From the NCBI GenBank assembly GCA_039024915.1, contig JBCCPK010000006.1, forward strand, positions 310,001 through 374,000: a stretch of DNA of 64,000 bases, in the 5' to 3' direction. This stretch comes from Pseudomonadota bacterium. GTDB taxonomy: Bacteria; Pseudomonadota; Alphaproteobacteria; Rhizobiales; MH13. This document shows positions 45,687 through 53,435 of the stretch, piece by piece. The position numbers and the translations under genes were made by a program. Each line of letters opens with the position of its first letter. Position 1 is the stretch's first letter. Below the pieces are notes generated by a model. It worked only from the letters and a program-made list of their open reading frames with translations, did no database searches and was not told where the DNA came from.

Positions 45687-47771
45687 ATGTTTTCAATATT
45701 TTCACTCTCTTTCTTCAACTGGCGACTGAGATTTACACTGGGGCGTCTGCGCTACGGCCCGCTTATGTCAAAGCTTGCGGCGCTCACCATCGGGACGGTT
45801 GTGGGTACCACAGTTGCGAGCGCGGGATCGCTGGCGCCCACGGTGCAAACCAACAGGCATTTCAGCGCGCTTGGCGAGGCAGCTCAGCACACGTCCATCA
45901 TCCGCCTCGCCAATTTTGGTGGCAGTGAGGTCCAGCGCGCGGCCGCAGCAATTCAACCGGTTCTCGACGCTTTGGATGCCAACAACGGCACGCGGGCCTA
46001 CGCCCTGGCCCAGGCTATCAGCGACCCGATCGCACGAGACCTTGGGCTTTGGCTCATCGGTCGCTTCGGTGCGAACGGAACGCCGCTAGAGCTTCGTACA
46101 GGTCTGCGCGATGCGATGGCTCAATGGCCGGGCGCAAGCGTCATCGCAAGGCGAACCGAAGCGGCGCTCGCTGAAACTTACCGGTCGCAAACGCCCCCCT
46201 CATCGGTTTTCGGCAGTGAGGCACCACGGACGGCTGCCGGGCAATTGATGCTGGCACGGGCATTGAAGGCAGAAGGCAATGTGCAAAGGGCACGCACCAT
46301 CGCCTCAGCCCTTTGGCGTACTGATGTGCTGGATGATGGTCTGGAGGCTGCTGCCCTATCGTCGATTGGTGACCTGCTGACGCAAGACGACCACCGCGCG
46401 CGTGCTCACTGGCTCCTGTACAGAGATCGCATAACCGGGGCCGAGCGTGTCGGACGCTTTCTGACTGCGGCAGACCGAGCGTCTATCGGTGCGCGCGCAG
46501 TGGCCATCCGCCAGGGAACTGATGGTCTTGGCACGGTCAGAGCGGCCCAGCAGGCCGCTCCCAATGACATTCATCTACGGTATGAGCTAGCGCGGCTGTA
46601 TCGCCGGGCCGACCGGCCGCAAGAGGCGGCGAACATCCTGTTGTCTGTTCAACAGACGGGACCAGCCTTGCTGCGCCAGGATCTGTGGTGGCGCGAACGC
46701 CGCATCGTGGCGCGCGATCTGGTTGAAGTGCGCCAGCCACAGCTCGCCTACCAAGTGGTGCAGAACCTCCCCGGCGATGATGCTGGCGACAATGCCGAAG
46801 CGGCCTTTACCGCCGGTTGGATCGCGCTGCGTTTCATGAACGACCCCGCGCGGGCTGAGCCGCACTTTCGCCAAATCCTCGATATCGGGACAACCCCTAT
46901 CACGCGTTCGCGCGGGTATTATTGGCTGGCGCGCGCCCAGTCGGCTGGTGGGAACGAGAGCGGCGCACGGCAAAGCTTTAATCAGGCGATGAATTATGGC
47001 GAGACGTTCTACGGACAGGCCGCAGCGGCCGTTCGCGGCCAGAGCGTTCAGCTGCCCGGCCTCCCGTCGGCGCGCACCCCCAACTCCGCTTTTTTCACCT
47101 ATGCGGACATCTTGTATGCCCTCGGCCGGCGAACAGACGCGCGAATCTTCCTGTACGCCATGGCGCGCGCGGAGACAGACCCCAGCGCAATTGTGGCTAT
47201 GGCCGACCTTGCAGAGCATCATGGTGACGCTCAGAGCGTTGTTCAGATTGGAAAAATTGGGGCACGCGCCCATCGGTCGTTAGCAACACTTGGCTACCCA
47301 ACCGATGCGTTCCCCCGGAATGCTCGCATTCCGGACCGCCTCCCAAGAGAGGTTGCCTACGCGATTGCCCGGCAGGAGAGCGGGTTCAACGCAACCGCCC
47401 GCAGCCGCGCTGGCGCACTGGGCCTGATGCAGCTGATGCCTGAGACGGCGCGACGTGTTGCGCGACAAATGGGTGTTTCGCACGCAACGGGTCGGCTCAC
47501 ATCGGACCCTGCGCATAACGTCGCTCTTGGGTCGTTCCATCTCGATGAATTGATCGCAACCTATGAAGGGTCGTACATCCTGACCTTCATCGCCTACAAT
47601 GCGGGTCCGGGTCGGGTACCCCAATGGATCGAACGCTTCGGCGACCCACGGAGCGGTCAAGTGGACGTTATCGATTGGATCGAACTCATCCCCTTTTCCG
47701 AAACACGCAGCTACGTGCAGCGGGTCCTGGAAAACATCACCGTCTATCAGACGCTCCTCGCCCGCGGATAA
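45687..47771 (+). CDS. soluble lytic murein transglycosylase (Slt70-like)
   Basis: 694 residues. Cleaves peptidoglycan glycan strands to anhydromuropeptides in the periplasm. A signal-like helix (KLAALTIGTVVGTTVASAGS) follows about 27 N-terminal residues; a long alpha-superhelical U domain (about 60-540) has TPR-like helices; the catalytic SLT domain has Glu564 in IARQESGFNATA, RAGALGLMQLMPETARR and FIAYNAGPGRVPQW. The C terminus has NITVYQTLLARG. ATG at 45687 has GGGAAAG six bases upstream; ATG at 45768 would give a more usual signal peptide. Confidence 0.93.
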   Translation: MFSIFSLSFFNWRLRFTLGRLRYGPLMSKLAALTIGTVVGTTVASAGSLAPTVQTNRHFSALGEAAQHTSIIRLANFGGSEVQRAAAAIQPVLDALDANNGTRAYALAQAISDPIARDLGLWLIGRFGANGTPLELRTGLRDAMAQWPGASVIARRTEAALAETYRSQTPPSSVFGSEAPRTAAGQLMLARALKAEGNVQRARTIASALWRTDVLDDGLEAAALSSIGDLLTQDDHRARAHWLLYRDRITGAERVGRFLTAADRASIGARAVAIRQGTDGLGTVRAAQQAAPNDIHLRYELARLYRRADRPQEAANILLSVQQTGPALLRQDLWWRERRIVARDLVEVRQPQLAYQVVQNLPGDDAGDNAEAAFTAGWIALRFMNDPARAEPHFRQILDIGTTPITRSRGYYWLARAQSAGGNESGARQSFNQAMNYGETFYGQAAAAVRGQSVQLPGLPSARTPNSAFFTYADILYALGRRTDARIFLYAMARAETDPSAIVAMADLAEHHGDAQSVVQIGKIGARAHRSLATLGYPTDAFPRNARIPDRLPREVAYAIARQESGFNATARSRAGALGLMQLMPETARRVARQMGVSHATGRLTSDPAHNVALGSFHLDELIATYEGSYILTFIAYNAGPGRVPQWIERFGDPRSGQVDVIDWIELIPFSETRSYVQRVLENITVYQTLLARG

Positions 47772-47781
47772 CGGGCGGACC

Positions 47782-48681
47782 GTGAGCTTTTCGACGAGCA
47801 TTCAAGCCGTACGAGCGCGAGACGGCTTGGCCTTGAGCGTTGAGCGAGCGACACCAAACGCGGATGACTGGCGCCGCCGGACGCCTCTACTTTGCCTGGC
47901 TGGGCTTACCCGTAACAGGCGCGACTTTTACGACTTACGCGATCATTTCGCCGGCCACCCCGAACAGCCCCGCCAGGTCGTCATGCTCGATGCGCGCGGT
48001 CGGGGAGCGTCCGAGTACGCACCCGATGCAAGCAGCTACACCGTGCAGCAGGAAGCCGATGACGTTCTGCAGGTCTGCACAGCGCTTGGGATTGAACACG
48101 CGATCCTTGTTGGCACGTCGCGCGGCGGTATTCTTGCTATGATCATAGCGCTTGTGCGCGGCGGGATGATCCGCGCGACGGTCCTCAACGATATCGGGCC
48201 TGAGATCGCCAGTGCAGGGCTGCTACGACTGAAGCAGCAGTTGGGCGATGGGCCAGTTGAGCCGCCGGAGAGCTGGCCGGAGGCAGAACAGCGCCTGCGC
48301 GAAGCCCTTGGCCCGCAATTTCCAGCGTTCTCCGACGATGATTGGACGCGCGCCGCACGCCTTACCTTCAACGAAAAGAATGGTCGGCCCGAACGCGCCT
48401 ATGACCCCAGAATTCTTGACGGTTTAGCGGCGGTCTCAGCCCAATCGGGCCCGATCGCCCTTTGGGCACCCTTCCAGGCGCTCGCGCGCGCGCCAGTGAT
48501 GATCGTGCGGGGCGAATTATCAGATTTGCTTGATACGGACGTTGCGCAACGCGCCGTTTCGCTCGCGCAGCAGAAAAGCGGAGGTGTACTGGAAATCGTT
48601 CCTGGGCAAGGGCATGCCCCTGCCCTGCGCGGACCAGTGCTGGACGTCATGCAGCACTTCTTTGAGGCGCACAGCCTGTAG
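47782..48681 (+). CDS. alpha/beta hydrolase
   Basis: 299 residues. Nucleophile elbow LVGTSRGGILAM (Ser113), acid in RGELSDLLDTD and His in VPGQGHAPALRGP form the triad; the oxyanion region is CLAGLTRNRRDFYDL. Similar to esterase/lactonase-type soluble hydrolases; substrate unknown. GTG start at 47782, 11 bases after the transglycosylase stop, so co-transcribed. Confidence 0.85.
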   Translation: MSFSTSIQAVRARDGLALSVERATPNADDWRRRTPLLCLAGLTRNRRDFYDLRDHFAGHPEQPRQVVMLDARGRGASEYAPDASSYTVQQEADDVLQVCTALGIEHAILVGTSRGGILAMIIALVRGGMIRATVLNDIGPEIASAGLLRLKQQLGDGPVEPPESWPEAEQRLREALGPQFPAFSDDDWTRAARLTFNEKNGRPERAYDPRILDGLAAVSAQSGPIALWAPFQALARAPVMIVRGELSDLLDTDVAQRAVSLAQQKSGGVLEIVPGQGHAPALRGPVLDVMQHFFEAHSL

Positions 48682-48818: not shown

Positions 48819-49526
48819 TTAGCTCTTCTTTTTTCGCGACTTTGAGGTTGAGACCTCGCCTTTATCAACGCGCTTGGCAAAGGCTGTTTCGCCGCCATCT
48901 GCGAGCACCTTTGCCTGGCCGATCCAGTCCTCACGTTCGATACGCCCGGCAAACGACAGAAATGTTCCAACCCAGCGGGACTGAGACGCGTTCCACTCAC
49001 CGATCTGGCTGAAATGGTAGATACCAAGATCGTTGAGCTTGCCCTCATTGACCTTGCCGATGCCTTTGATGCGCTGAAGGTTGTCCTTCTTGCCGCCGAT
49101 CGGCGCGTCCATGCCCTCGGGCCGCTGACCAACAGCGTTGGCCTTGTCTTCATTGGAAGCATCAGCCGGAAGCGCTGCGATTGCTGCGGCCGCCTTTTCT
49201 TCATCCATACCATCCGCGGCGACTGCCTGCGCCGGCTCGGCTGCAGGTTCTGGCTCGGGCTCGGGCTCGGGTTCCGCAGCCGTCTGAGGCTCTGGCTCGG
49301 CCGCGGGTGCGGGCGTGGGCGTGGGCTTTGGATCAGGCTCAGACTGAGTGCGCGCTGCAACCGTTGCCGTTGCCACTGCAGCGGCGGTTTCCGCAGGGGT
49401 TGATCGCGCCGACGCACCGTAGCTTGAGCCGCTTGCAAAGAAACGCCGCAGCAAGCAGCCCAGAATAGCCCCAAGAATGAACGCTGCCAGAACCAGAAGA
49501 GCGGTATGCAGGAAAAGATTGAACAT
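48819..49526 (-). CDS. membrane-anchored helix-hairpin-helix protein
   Basis: 235 residues. Residues 4-27 form one membrane helix; 60-105 is a Pro/Glu/Ala-rich linker with a run of EP repeats; 148-205 is a helix-hairpin-helix region (LQRIKGIGKVNEGKLNDLGI, then HFSQIGEWNASQSRWVGTFL) related to the predicted flap-endonuclease-like H3TH/DUF4332 type; the tail is Lys/Ser rich. It looks like an inner-membrane protein with a nucleic-acid or protein binding head. Last gene of the OmpA-microprotein-HhH unit, nine bases after the microprotein. Confidence 0.75.
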   Translation of the reverse strand: MFNLFLHTALLVLAAFILGAILGCLLRRFFASGSSYGASARSTPAETAAAVATATVAARTQSEPDPKPTPTPAPAAEPEPQTAAEPEPEPEPEPAAEPAQAVAADGMDEEKAAAAIAALPADASNEDKANAVGQRPEGMDAPIGGKKDNLQRIKGIGKVNEGKLNDLGIYHFSQIGEWNASQSRWVGTFLSFAGRIEREDWIGQAKVLADGGETAFAKRVDKGEVSTSKSRKKKS

Positions 49527-49535
49527 AAGGCCCTC

Positions 49536-49640
49536 CTACTTGCTGTCGTCAGCAGCTTTGGTCGTCACCCACCCGGTAATGACGCCAATGACGAACGCGA
49601 TCAGAAGAAAAAGCCAGAGCTGACTGATAAGATAGGACAT
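49536..49640 (-). CDS. 34-residue membrane microprotein
   Basis: ATG at 49640 encodes 34 residues: MSYLISQLWLFLLIAFVIG, then VITGWVTTKAADDSK. One membrane helix with a short polar C terminus. It sits with 11 bases to the OmpA gene stop and nine bases to the next start, and an AAGG ribosome site lies about nine bases before the ATG, so it fits tightly in the operon. Too short for routine gene callers. Confidence 0.7.
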   Translation of the reverse strand: MSYLISQLWLFLLIAFVIGVITGWVTTKAADDSK

Positions 49641-49651
49641 GGGAGTTCGCC

Positions 49652-51769
49652 TTATTCCTGCTGCTCACGCTGAACGTTGAATTCAATTCGGCGATTGCGG
49701 GCTTTACCCTCGTCGGTCGCATTGTCCGCAATCGGATCGGTCTCGCCATAACCCTGTGCCGTGACGCGGGCAGGGTCCACATCGGCCGCCAAAACATAAT
49801 CGAGGACGGCGTTGGCGCGTTCTTCCGAAAGAGTTTGATTCAGGTCGTCACTGCCATCTGAATCCGTGTGACCGGAAATCTCGACCCTCGCGTCGGGGCA
49901 GGATTGTAAGGTTCGAACCAAACGATCGACCAGGCCAAAGCTCAAGGTGTCGATGGTCGCGCTGCCTGTGTCAAAGCGAATGGCGTTATCGGCGAGCAAG
50001 CGCGCAAACAGCAGCTGGCATTGCGTTTCATCCACGGGTTCAGGTGGTGGAAGAACACCGATCTCCGCGCTCAGATTGATGCCATCGGGAAGACCGGCCA
50101 GCAAATCGCTCTGTATGCTATCGGCTGAGCTGTCATAGAACGCTTCACCCGCAAGGTTGGCATCGCTGTCTGATATGGAAAACAGCCCGCCTTCAAGCCG
50201 ACCAAGTCCCCGCAAGCCTGCTGTTACAAGCGCTTCAAACCCACCCGGCGCCCCATTGGCCACCTGCAAATTGTCGATCACGCTTTCACCGGGAAAAAGA
50301 GCCGCAACGTCGGTCAGGACCTGATCGCGGCTGCCCTCACTTGGCACAAAACCGTCAAGCGTGACGCCCGCGCCCTGCGTTGAAGCGTTGAACGTGAACG
50401 GAGACGCGGGACCGGCTTCGATGGCGGCATCAACCGAAACGCCCTGTGCGGCAAGGGCAGCGAAGCCCTCTTCGGCGGCGCCAACAGATTGAAAGCTTGG
50501 TGCCGTACCGGAAATGTCCAACGCTTCACCGGTGAGGGTTGCCACGCCGTCGGTCAAGCCAGACATGGCTTCAGCCGCACCAGCCAGCACAGTGGCTATC
50601 TCGAACTGTGATGGGCCCCCGCGAGCAATCGTTGTCTCATCACCAACCGTCAGGCCCTGCGCTTCGAACGCATCAAACAGCACAGCCCGACTGGTCTCAT
50701 CGGGAAGAACCCCGGTAAGGATGAAGCTGTCGCCAGTCATGCGGAGTATCGTCGTAAAAGGGTCGGCGATGGGCGGCAAAACAGTGCCGGATATGCTGCC
50801 AAACCCGTCGGGTATCGCGCTCAGGAAAGCATTGGCTGCATCAAAGGTGGCGCTATCGGGCGCCTCACCATTAAGCGTGGCTTCGTCAACCGAAATCGAT
50901 GCCGATGGATTATCCAGCGCACTCATTTGCGTCAGTAACGCCGATGCCGCAGACGCAAATCCGTCCGGCGCTCCCGAGGCCAACAGCATCTGATCATCAA
51001 CGGATCCAAGCCCGCTTGCAGCGTTGACGAGCGCTTCCCGCGTTTCCTCATCTGGTACAAACCCGGTCAGCACCACGCCGCCATTGGTGCCCTCAGCCGC
51101 CCACGTGTAAGGGTCAGCCAAAGGTGGCCGCAGACTGAGGGATGCCATTTCAAGACCATCGACAGGTTCACCGAGGCGCGCGACTTCAGTCGTGAAGCTC
51201 TCTTGATCCAGAGCCGTGGCGTCGACCGTTAGGCTTGCACCCTCCAAACCGATAGATCCATCAGCAACGCTGGCAACGCCAGCGCCTGCGAAGGCGGCGA
51301 ACGCCGAGAAACCTGTCGGAGCGCCGCGTGCAAGCTCAGTCTGATCAACCAAGGTCAGGTCACCTAGCCCCGCGCGCACAGCATCCAGAACCTCGGTCCG
51401 GACATCCTCACCAGGGAAGGCCCCGGTCACCGTGACCGAATCGACTGATTTTGTGAATTCCAGCGTGTAAGGATCAGCCAGTGGCATCAGCTGAAGTGCG
51501 CTCACGTCGACTGTGTAAACGCCCCACACCCGGTCCGCCGCAGAAATAGCGGCATCAAGTGCTGCTTCGCTGGGCGCCAAGCCACTCATAGTGGCATCTC
51601 TGCCGCTCAACGTCAAAGACGCCCAGGGTGTACCGTCTTCAGCAAATATACCGGCTGAACGCTCCGCAAGGTCCGCTTCGATCGGCCCGCCACGGACTAT
51701 GACAGCAAGCGCTGTTAGGACAATCAGGGTTGCAAGACCTGGGATAATCCAAGCGCGCCAATTAAACAT
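49652..51769 (-). CDS. OmpA family protein with four internal repeats
   Basis: 705 residues from ATG 51769 (MFNWRAWIIPGLATLIVLTA), a membrane anchor or uncleaved signal. A BON-like segment follows (TLSGRDATMSGLAPSEAAL), then four repeats of about 117-120 residues, each with an ADPF/YT-type start (about residues 98, 218, 335 and 455), a GFVPDEETR-type BON-like strand and a GAPDGF-type turn. The C-terminal OmpA domain binds peptidoglycan: IRFDTGSATIDTLS, VEISGHTDSDGSDDLNQTLS, RVTAQGYGETDPIADN and RNRRIEF. A structural envelope protein; no beta-barrel is apparent. Confidence 0.85.
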   Translation of the reverse strand: MFNWRAWIIPGLATLIVLTALAVIVRGGPIEADLAERSAGIFAEDGTPWASLTLSGRDATMSGLAPSEAALDAAISAADRVWGVYTVDVSALQLMPLADPYTLEFTKSVDSVTVTGAFPGEDVRTEVLDAVRAGLGDLTLVDQTELARGAPTGFSAFAAFAGAGVASVADGSIGLEGASLTVDATALDQESFTTEVARLGEPVDGLEMASLSLRPPLADPYTWAAEGTNGGVVLTGFVPDEETREALVNAASGLGSVDDQMLLASGAPDGFASAASALLTQMSALDNPSASISVDEATLNGEAPDSATFDAANAFLSAIPDGFGSISGTVLPPIADPFTTILRMTGDSFILTGVLPDETSRAVLFDAFEAQGLTVGDETTIARGGPSQFEIATVLAGAAEAMSGLTDGVATLTGEALDISGTAPSFQSVGAAEEGFAALAAQGVSVDAAIEAGPASPFTFNASTQGAGVTLDGFVPSEGSRDQVLTDVAALFPGESVIDNLQVANGAPGGFEALVTAGLRGLGRLEGGLFSISDSDANLAGEAFYDSSADSIQSDLLAGLPDGINLSAEIGVLPPPEPVDETQCQLLFARLLADNAIRFDTGSATIDTLSFGLVDRLVRTLQSCPDARVEISGHTDSDGSDDLNQTLSEERANAVLDYVLAADVDPARVTAQGYGETDPIADNATDEGKARNRRIEFNVQREQQE

Positions 51770-51974: not shown

Positions 51975-52004
51975 AAAAAAAGAGCCCGGGCGAACCCGGG
52001 CTCT
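51975..52004 (-). terminator. intrinsic terminator of the porin gene
   Basis: Ten-base perfect stem AGAGCCCGGG (51981-51990) / CCCGGGCTCT (51995-52004), four-base loop CGAA, followed on the minus strand by a T run (AAAAAA at 51975-51980). It lies 30 bp after the porin stop. Confidence 0.92.
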
Positions 52005-52034
52005 TCAATTGTTCCACTACTCTGAATGTTCAGA

Positions 52035-53435
52035 TTAGAAAGAACGGGTGATCCGAAAACGACCGGTGATACCGTCGTCGATGAACGGATCAAGACCATT
52101 AGCGACGTCGAAGCTGGTGTAGCCGACGCCCGCACGCAGCTCAAGACCGCTGACCGGCCGGTAAGCAACAGAACCACGAATACCAAAGACTTGGTAGTCG
52201 CCGAGGCCACCAAGACCGAAGTGGTCAACGTCAGCATAATACGCATCAAGTTCGAGGTCAGTCATAGCGTTCAGACCGAACTCAAAACCTGCGCCCAATG
52301 CGAACGCTTCTGTCAGCTGTAGGTTACCGGCACCGTCGATGAGAGCATCGTACGAAATGTCGATAGTAGCCGCAGGCAGACCGCCCGAAACAACAGGCAG
52401 AGCCGTGGCCGGGAAGCCCAGCGTCGCGCCACCAAGACCGGTGTAGGACAGAGCGCCTTCAGTGTAGATACCGAAGATACCGAACACCGAGCTAACGCCA
52501 AACGGCAGGTTGAACTCAGCTGAAGCCTGAAGTGCGTAGCCAATTTCCGAGTCGATGGCATTGGTACCATCTTCGTCGACCTGCACGATTGCACCCGCAA
52601 CCTTAGCAGTACCCCAGGCCTGCGTGATCTGGGTGGCGCCAACCAGCGCAAGACCATTGTCTGTGTCCTGGCGATCACCAATTGTGCCGCCCGGCAGGAA
52701 GGCATGCTCGCCAGCAACAACTGTGCCAGAGTTTGCAACGCCCGGTCCAGGGAAGTTACCGTTGAGATCAACACCACCATCACCGCGGACAAGGAGCCCC
52801 TGGGTTGGTGTACCGGTCAGGCCGACTGTGACATCTGCGATACCAGCAAAACGACCGTTACCACCATTGTCCTCGATTGAGGCCATGATGATGATGCCGT
52901 TGCCAGCGTTGAAGGAGTAACCGATCAGAGCAAGGTCGTCGGTGCCGCCGTCAGCAGCGCCCAGACCAGCCATGGCGTAGTCCGTATAAACCGGGTCGAA
53001 GAAGGAATCGGTCAAACCTGCGGTCAAACCATTAATCTGAACGAAAGCCTTGTTCACGTTCAGGCCATAATCTTCCGGCTCACCGGAGGCACCCAAACGG
53101 ATGAAGCCGCGCAGCAAGCCCAACTCAGTCATCGTGCGAGCATCGAGGTCAATCTCAACTTCACTTGCGAAGTCGATGTCGTCATCGTCGCTATCGGTGT
53201 TGAAACCGACATCTTCGCGGTCAACACCAATGTCCGCCTGGAAGCGGGCGAAACCCGAAATGTCGAAGCAGACATCGCCGCCAGGCAGGACGAAACCAGT
53301 GAAACCGCCAATCGTGCAGATCTGCACGTAGTCGACAGCCGGTGCAACCGGCAGGCCGAGGTCGGCGGCATGCGCCCCGGAGGTTGCGACGAACGCCGCA
53401 GCTGTACCGAGGAGAAGGCGTTTTGCCGTAGTCAT
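52035..53435 (-). CDS. alphaproteobacterial porin (Porin_2 type)
   Basis: 466 residues. Signal peptide AKRLLLGTAAAFVATSGAHA; mature start ADLGLPVAPAVDYVQIC, then GGDVCFDISGFARFQADIG, with two cysteines conserved in rhizobial porins of the Omp2 type. Alternating strands and a C-terminal Phe after GRFRITRS fit a 16-strand trimeric porin. GGAGG six bases before the ATG and a strong terminator suggest high expression. Confidence 0.9.
   Translation of the reverse strand: MTTAKRLLLGTAAAFVATSGAHAADLGLPVAPAVDYVQICTIGGFTGFVLPGGDVCFDISGFARFQADIGVDREDVGFNTDSDDDDIDFASEVEIDLDARTMTELGLLRGFIRLGASGEPEDYGLNVNKAFVQINGLTAGLTDSFFDPVYTDYAMAGLGAADGGTDDLALIGYSFNAGNGIIIMASIEDNGGNGRFAGIADVTVGLTGTPTQGLLVRGDGGVDLNGNFPGPGVANSGTVVAGEHAFLPGGTIGDRQDTDNGLALVGATQITQAWGTAKVAGAIVQVDEDGTNAIDSEIGYALQASAEFNLPFGVSSVFGIFGIYTEGALSYTGLGGATLGFPATALPVVSGGLPAATIDISYDALIDGAGNLQLTEAFALGAGFEFGLNAMTDLELDAYYADVDHFGLGGLGDYQVFGIRGSVAYRPVSGLELRAGVGYTSFDVANGLDPFIDDGITGRFRITRSF

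Follow-up and report, generated by a model that had tools for sequence, protein, structure and literature searches.

What do three closely packed genes of an alphaproteobacterial locus make together, and is the smallest of them, which would encode 34 residues, a gene at all? The locus lies on the minus strand at positions 48,819 to 51,769 of a 64,000-nucleotide stretch (hereafter the window) from a Pseudomonadota bacterium of the Rhizobiales (GenBank assembly GCA_039024915.1, contig JBCCPK010000006.1, positions 310,001 to 374,000). Our results show that the trio is conserved and turns up in many families within a single bacterial order, that its first protein is a homologue of mycobacterial ArfA/OmpATb (Rv0899), and that the microprotein frame is coding and under purifying selection. 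Because of this homology and the gene order, we propose that the operon encodes an alphaproteobacterial ArfABC-like complex of the inner membrane, working as a trans-envelope adaptor. To this reading we give a probability of about 0.65; its topology, its assembly into one complex and any function are what we infer. The features are as follows, all on the minus strand:

49652..51769, minus: arfA-like gene, 705 residues, with an N-terminal membrane helix, nine predicted BON-like modules (one plus four double repeats) and a C-terminal OmpA peptidoglycan-binding domain.
51119..51478, minus: repeat 1 of the ArfA-like protein, residues 98-217 (alignment and shuffles, AlphaFold2 model).
50768..51118, minus: repeat 2, residues 218-334 (alignment and shuffles, AlphaFold2 model).
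50414..50767, minus: repeat 3, residues 335-452 (alignment and shuffles, AlphaFold2 model).
50054..50413, minus: repeat 4, residues 453-572 (alignment and shuffles; together with the OmpA domain colinear to Rv0899, 2L26).
49691..49978, minus: OmpA domain, residues 598-693 (Pfam PF00691, 76 bits).
49536..49640, minus: microprotein in the ArfB position, 34 residues, one membrane helix, family consensus MxYLIxxLWPxLxxAxxxGxxxGW.
48819..49526, minus: membrane-anchored helix-hairpin-helix (HhH) protein in the ArfC position, 235 residues, with one N-terminal helix bearing GxxxG, an Ala/Pro/Glu-rich linker and a C-terminal HhH domain.
48894..49085, minus: HhH domain, about residues 148-211 of the third protein.

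Frames and coordinates confirm the layout given in an earlier note on this DNA, with 11 bases (49641-49651) between the arfA-like gene and the microprotein and 9 bases (49527-49535) between the microprotein and the HhH gene. Each of the three proteins carries a single N-terminal hydrophobic helix, again as the note had read them.

To follow the trio across genomes, 60 regions were picked by hand from 81 related genomes, among the matches listed, and we counted 41 arfA genes (the window's included) with a BON-plus-OmpA frame above 430 residues and both ends inside the region. One more gene, cut by a contig end and with both partners present (L041), stands outside this number, and loci on the same contig as another locus (L100, L102, L115, L149, L152; for the tree and the length correlation also L151) were removed. 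Hidden Markov models (HMMs) of the elements, trained partly on the counted loci, were run over the 3.5 kb downstream of arfA. They found the microprotein in 39 of 41 loci. The anchor of the HhH protein and the HhH domain were detected in 36 loci each, and 33 loci had all three elements, so that the genes are not usually apart, the outcome on which the earlier note had staked its proposal; the anchor was not detected by this search in L055, L061, L076 and L081. In the control stretches (3.5 kb upstream, and the reverse strand) the elements were found in 0 of 41. Furthermore, a phylum-wide draw added 17 regions, in which the ArfA-OmpA genes of the same order had the microprotein in 6 of 6 cases and the HhH domain in 5 of 6 (one of the six, L190, shares a contig with L111), and the four places without a BON or OmpA match had neither element (4/4). 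At L105, two arfA-type genes are apparently in tandem, a 727-residue frame followed by one of 601 residues, with a microprotein 1890 bases after the first.

The microprotein itself behaves as a protein. In an alignment of 20 of them M1 and G19 are invariant and Y3, L4, A15, G23 and W24 nearly so. Among five close genomes, the ratio of non-synonymous to synonymous substitution (dN/dS) of its frame is 0.03-0.39 in all ten pairs, with dS saturated in several, and in each pair most differences fall at third codon positions; the possibility, raised in the earlier note, of a frame not conserved as protein is thereby removed. As a held-out test, a second HMM was made from nothing but the N-terminal ends of the 39 fused proteins described below. 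With a threshold of 10 bits it recovered the microprotein in 45 of 49 other loci, or in 43 of 47 once the fused loci L139 and L152 are set aside (the misses are L054, L083, L095 and L096), and in 0 of 49 in both control stretches. We therefore reject a chance frame on three counts, namely its presence in 39 of 41 downstream regions, the held-out HMM and the dN/dS values. The single helix claimed for it is found, as one membrane helix. Twelve of the 20 microproteins match the Pfam family LapA_dom weakly in this helix (best E 3.2e-4); membership was rejected, since the window protein scores 18.9 against a gathering score of 28 and the other matches are weak.

A further sign that the microprotein is real, and that it is linked to its neighbour, comes from other species, which carry it fused to the HhH protein. 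Of 80 named loci, 51 had an arfA-type gene just upstream by our rule and 29 did not; among the latter, L101, L103, L118, L134 and L139 are apparently operon members that the rule overlooked or that lie at contig ends, and many others read as NuoE. In 39 loci, among them those of Bosea, Methylobacterium, Phreatobacter, Rhabdaerophilum, Alsobacter and Rhizobium rhizogenes, no separate microprotein is present, the HhH protein begins 7-15 bases past arfA in most, and its first helix is the microprotein. Rhodobium orientis is a species with the two genes separate. Indeed, the microprotein HMM matches all 39 fused proteins at the N-terminus (residues 1-32 or so; median 30.8 bits), and the best match of the HhH-anchor HMM starts at residue 60-79 in 35 of them and at the first helix in the other four. 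As controls, 86 ArfA N-termini all scored under 6 bits, and of 236 hydrophobic control frames those with at least 12 bits came from L047, L063, L067, L072, L076 and L149 only, where their position suggests that these frames are further, uncalled copies of the genes in question. L048, for which a wrong frame had been picked, was left out of this comparison; its microprotein is found by both the trio and the held-out HMMs.

The fused form contains an extra, bridging helix between the microprotein helix and the HhH anchor helix. A structure model of the Bosea protein places helices at residues 9-29, 37-54 and 61-86 (mean predicted local distance difference test, pLDDT, 80.5), and a fold search with the fused protein gave no match at E<=0.001. 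Another form, in L083, L095 and L096, matches the microprotein HMM more weakly (6.9-19.4 bits). In L095 and L096 the single helix of the HhH protein weakly matches both the microprotein and the anchor HMMs and has a charged stretch behind it, which makes a third arrangement besides the separate and the fused ones. In a tree built from the OmpA ends, five changes of the fused label are required, at least two of them forced by well-supported branches, with long branches flagged; the tree cannot tell how many times the fusion arose. A 34-residue protein is easily missed by gene finders; conservation and natural fusions show that this one is real, and the fusions also report on its topology.

Which side of the membrane does each part occupy? 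Lysines and arginines follow the helix in the 39 microproteins (1.62 after versus 0.33 before, a wrong frame from L048 being counted among them) and in 39 HhH anchors (2.46 versus 0.03). Because positive charges follow the helix, we infer that both have their N-terminus outside and their C-terminus inside. In the 39 fused proteins the same bias is seen for the first helix (2.21 versus 0.10) and the third (2.23 versus 0.85), and connecting a C-terminus in the cytoplasm with an N-terminus in the periplasm would take a bridging helix, so that the fusions agree with this orientation. Given the bridging helix and the charge bias, the HhH head most likely lies in the cytoplasm. The BON and OmpA domains of the ArfA-like protein would be periplasmic because of the ligand of the OmpA domain. 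The earlier note had suggested one complex spanning inner membrane and cell wall; the conservation of the microprotein and of the three genes together favours it, and a wall-side HhH head most likely gives way to a cytoplasmic one. The note made no mention of the relationship to mycobacterial ArfA/OmpATb and its operon. The microprotein and HhH-anchor helices align as profiles with a probability of 96.7 over 39 columns, and their GxxxG motifs (residues 19 and 23) stand in the same register from the start codon. A common origin of the two is possible, to judge from scores that hydrophobic helices inflate.

The HhH domain is recognised through relatives. In the window it falls under the Pfam cut-offs (IMS_HHH, 13.5 versus 24.4 bits), and the relative in L155 passes HHH_5 (30.3 versus 27 bits), so that the HhH head on a membrane anchor, first read from the window alone, stands. 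The domain matches the C-terminal parts of the models of NuoE, S2, L21 and phasin, which we take to be cytoplasmic proteins. Its matches in the PDB are protein-O of the Dinoroseobacter shibae reaction centre-light-harvesting 1 complex (RC-LH1; 8YY9 chain O, E 1.3e-24) and 9wqv chain a (E 3.5e-20). PMC12079452 describes protein-O as a membrane hairpin closed by a disulfide between its two ends on the cytoplasmic side, with a flexible linker and a C-terminal HhH domain that the map does not resolve; it adds that the HhH domain also ends NuoE, that the protein-O gene lies between nuoE and nuoF, and that the functions of these domains are obscure. Because both hairpin ends are on the cytoplasmic side, the HhH domain of protein-O is cytoplasmic, and these other carriers would agree, by analogy, with a cytoplasmic head in the operon protein.

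The window's genome has the HhH domain at four further places, of which three were read: NuoE, an Ala/Lys-rich protein beside NuoE, and one that reads as a protein of the polyhydroxybutyrate-depolymerase type. At G000:C6:226696-229182 (L181, L182) an Ala/Lys-rich protein with an HhH tail lies near NuoE, resembling protein-O beside nuoE. In L127, L147 and L178 the domain is found on what read as proteins resembling ABC-transporter ATPases. We read the HhH domain as a module that is frequently added to proteins of these bacteria.

The first protein was placed from its sequence as well as from its predicted structure. Copies of the motif [DS]P[YF]T stand at residues 99, 219, 336 and 456 (spacing 120, 117 and 120), G[AG]PxxF recurs at 149, 266, 384 and 506, and all six pairs of repeat units align far better than 200 shuffles (z 8.1 to 19.3). 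Pfam recognises BON with 57.8 bits (cut-off 27) and OmpA with 76 (cut-off 27.2), and together these results bear out the four tandem BON-like repeats of period 117-120 that had been seen before the peptidoglycan-binding domain. In an AlphaFold2 model (mean pLDDT 92.5, predicted template modelling score 0.51), the DSSP string, as we read it, predicts that each repeat consists of two strand-strand-helix-strand modules, with an extra module at residues 51-94, nine in total.

The order of parts is that of ArfA/OmpATb, with an N-terminal membrane helix, the BON-like B domain and the OmpA C domain, and the OmpA end has a peptidoglycan-binding fold. The best PDB match by sequence is Rv0899 (2L26, E 7.7e-25, query 460-702, colinear over the last repeat and the OmpA domain). 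By structure the best Foldseek match is again 2L26 (E 7.0e-14); 2KGS, the amino-terminal domain on its own, is matched too (E 1.9e-6), and VIA-align covered mostly the OmpA end. The NCBIfam ArfA/OmpATb model NF051434 gives 119.5 bits (cut-off 81) as the sum of five stretches. These matches demonstrate homology to ArfA, and therefore the first protein counts as a multi-repeat relative in which the B domain is present about four and a half times.

Of the 80 ArfA proteins in the set, 79 contain between 1 and 9 copies according to a repeat HMM, which counts 5 in the protein from the window. L064 and L053 encode ArfA-type proteins of about 1400 residues, and a 1912-residue open frame with repeated BON matches lies at G072:C6:175473-179402; the range of rod lengths is thus wide. 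The idea of matched spacers was rejected, ArfA length and HhH-protein length giving a Spearman coefficient of 0.01 (n=39).

In the ArfABC-like reading, the ArfA-like protein would be anchored in the inner membrane and reach into the periplasm with a rod made up of nine BON-like modules, and there its OmpA domain would hold peptidoglycan. The microprotein and the HhH protein would be its two single-helix partners, whose GxxxG motifs are equally far from the start codon, and the HhH head would sit on a flexible linker in the cytoplasm. The three proteins probably assemble into one complex, the most likely role of which would be that of an adaptor that, under envelope or acid stress, couples the cell wall with the cytoplasmic side of the membrane. 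The ArfB position, that of a very small single-helix protein directly after arfA, is filled in 39 of 41 loci by the microprotein HMM, and in G000, G001, G002, G003 and G030 the ArfB model picks out the microprotein site with scores no better than chance, which lends weak support.

Several observations weigh against this reading. The window microprotein reaches 17.1 bits with the ArfB model NF051435 (E 0.005), far under its cut-off of 40; only 3 of 20 microproteins match it at E<=1 (best E 0.0051). In whole genomes, hits to this model at E<=10 are at chance level (49 of 61 genomes, 10 of 14 control genomes) and none exceeds the cut-off, and in the window's own genome another place outscored the microprotein site. 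The ArfC model NF051455 is not among the 24 families that match the third protein at E<=1, and 18 HhH anchors do not match it; one of the 20 microproteins does, at E 0.079. Identity with ArfB and ArfC thus rests on position, and the operon is not filed as ArfABC proper because the ArfB match is sub-threshold and the ArfC model unmatched.

Single repeats score only 37-64 bits with the ArfA model, under its cut-off of 81. In the phylum-wide draw none of 398 genomes rose above the cut-off, because repeats were scored singly there, and the window's own genome had no match to the model at E<=1e-8. The ArfA helix has no charge bias (2.37 lysines and arginines before versus 2.46 after). As regards conservation, the 41 arfA genes represent 38 of the 81 genomes; among the 41 loci the HMM search found no downstream element in L054 and no HhH domain in L047, L062, L076 and L082; and seven ArfA-OmpA places outside the order had neither the microprotein (0/7) nor the HhH domain (0/7). 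A literature search that did not extend to the two key papers, Song 2011 and Marassi 2011, found no paper describing the alphaproteobacterial operon.

The surroundings bear on what else the locus might be. Among the neighbours, three gene families were named, and each keeps its orientation wherever it occurs. A Porin_2 gene precedes the operon on its own strand in 45 of 81 loci. Downstream, an alpha/beta hydrolase gene converges on the operon in 55 of 81, and an SLT transglycosylase gene comes after the hydrolase in 37 of 81. All three counts are lower bounds, since flanks are short in many loci. In the window flanks (45687-48681 and 52035-53435) the SLT transglycosylase and the alpha/beta hydrolase converge on the operon and Porin_2 precedes it. 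Between the porin gene and the operon stands one further feature:

51979..52006, minus: terminator-like hairpin of 12 pairs with a T-rich tail, upstream of the operon (pattern match only).

Eleven such sites are found by pattern in the whole stretch, against a shuffled mean of 3.9, and the porin gene is probably on a transcript separate from the operon. A search of 72,556 plasmids with the ArfA-like protein (E<=1e-30) returned one record, a 2.4-Mb replicon of Rhizobium lusitanum covering 35% of the query; the fused protein of L123 (E<=1e-20) returned that record alone, and the microprotein gave no match at E<=1. The plasmid searches therefore show no sign of a mobile origin, and the locus looks like an old chromosomal one.

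The explanation that survives best beside the adaptor is a structural tether only, in which the ArfA-like protein would anchor to the wall in the manner of Pal and its two small partners would just stabilise its membrane helix, with no signalling to the cytoplasm. The peptidoglycan-binding fold of the OmpA end, a copy number that varies from 1 to 9 as in an adjustable spacer, and the porin and SLT transglycosylase genes nearby all speak for it. It leaves the HhH head unexplained, even though most invariant columns of the third protein fall within this head, and we consider the tether possible but doubtful.

A system that is ArfABC in function too seems unlikely to us. PMC3728290 and PMC6151718 report that the mycobacterial ompATb operon speeds ammonia release and neutralises acid surroundings, and ArfA homology and the shared gene order would, by analogy, extend this activity to the complex described here. 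Against this stand the unmatched ArfC model and the mode of action of OmpATb, which is called controversial even in mycobacteria in PMC3816664.

Quite improbable, in our estimate, is an extension of the adaptor in which the OmpA end on peptidoglycan, the BON rod, and the ArfA helix with two in-phase GxxxG helices would carry an HhH head that docks onto the like HhH domains of NuoE, S2, L21, phasin and polyhydroxybutyrate depolymerase, and in phototrophs reaches the reaction centre via protein-O, so that one shared interaction domain would position energy and storage machinery at the cell wall. Very improbable, finally, are three unrelated envelope genes kept adjacent by slow change of gene order in an old chromosomal neighbourhood, since, although the wider neighbourhood of hydrolase, porin and SLT transglycosylase is conserved too, the genes follow each other on a single strand with some 10 bases between them, and the fusion of microprotein and HhH protein, for which the tree needs five label changes, at least two of them forced by well-supported branches, also argues against them.

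How does the ArfABC-like reading compare with known systems? The likeness to LapA (Pfam LapA_dom) is a weak one in the membrane helix of the microproteins, with no LapB-type partner in the operon, and is probably that of a similar helix only. Among BON-domain proteins, PMC8909678 names OsmY, DolP and BonA. These have periplasmic BON-type modules in common with the ArfA-like protein, which differs by carrying nine modules on an inner-membrane anchor. The three are presumably soluble proteins or lipoproteins with few BON domains and without an OmpA domain. Protein-O shares with the third protein a membrane anchor, a flexible linker and a C-terminal HhH domain of the same type; its own anchor is a two-helix hairpin with a disulfide, in a photosynthetic complex and encoded between nuoE and nuoF, whereas the anchor here is one helix encoded in an arfA-like operon.

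The closest system is arfA-arfB-arfC (Rv0899-Rv0900-Rv0901), its gene order being taken from the locus numbers in the NCBIfam names. The first protein is homologous over the BON-like B and OmpA C domains, and in both operons the next two genes encode, in this order, a very small protein of one helix and then a longer one with a membrane anchor. The differences are that mycobacterial ArfA has one B domain and the protein described here four and a half copies, that the second protein is sub-threshold for ArfB, and that the third has an HhH head and is unmatched by the ArfC model. A mycobacterial operon whose role is called controversial (PMC3816664) thus has a recurrent relative in tractable Alphaproteobacteria, one in which an HhH head probably reaches into the cytoplasm.

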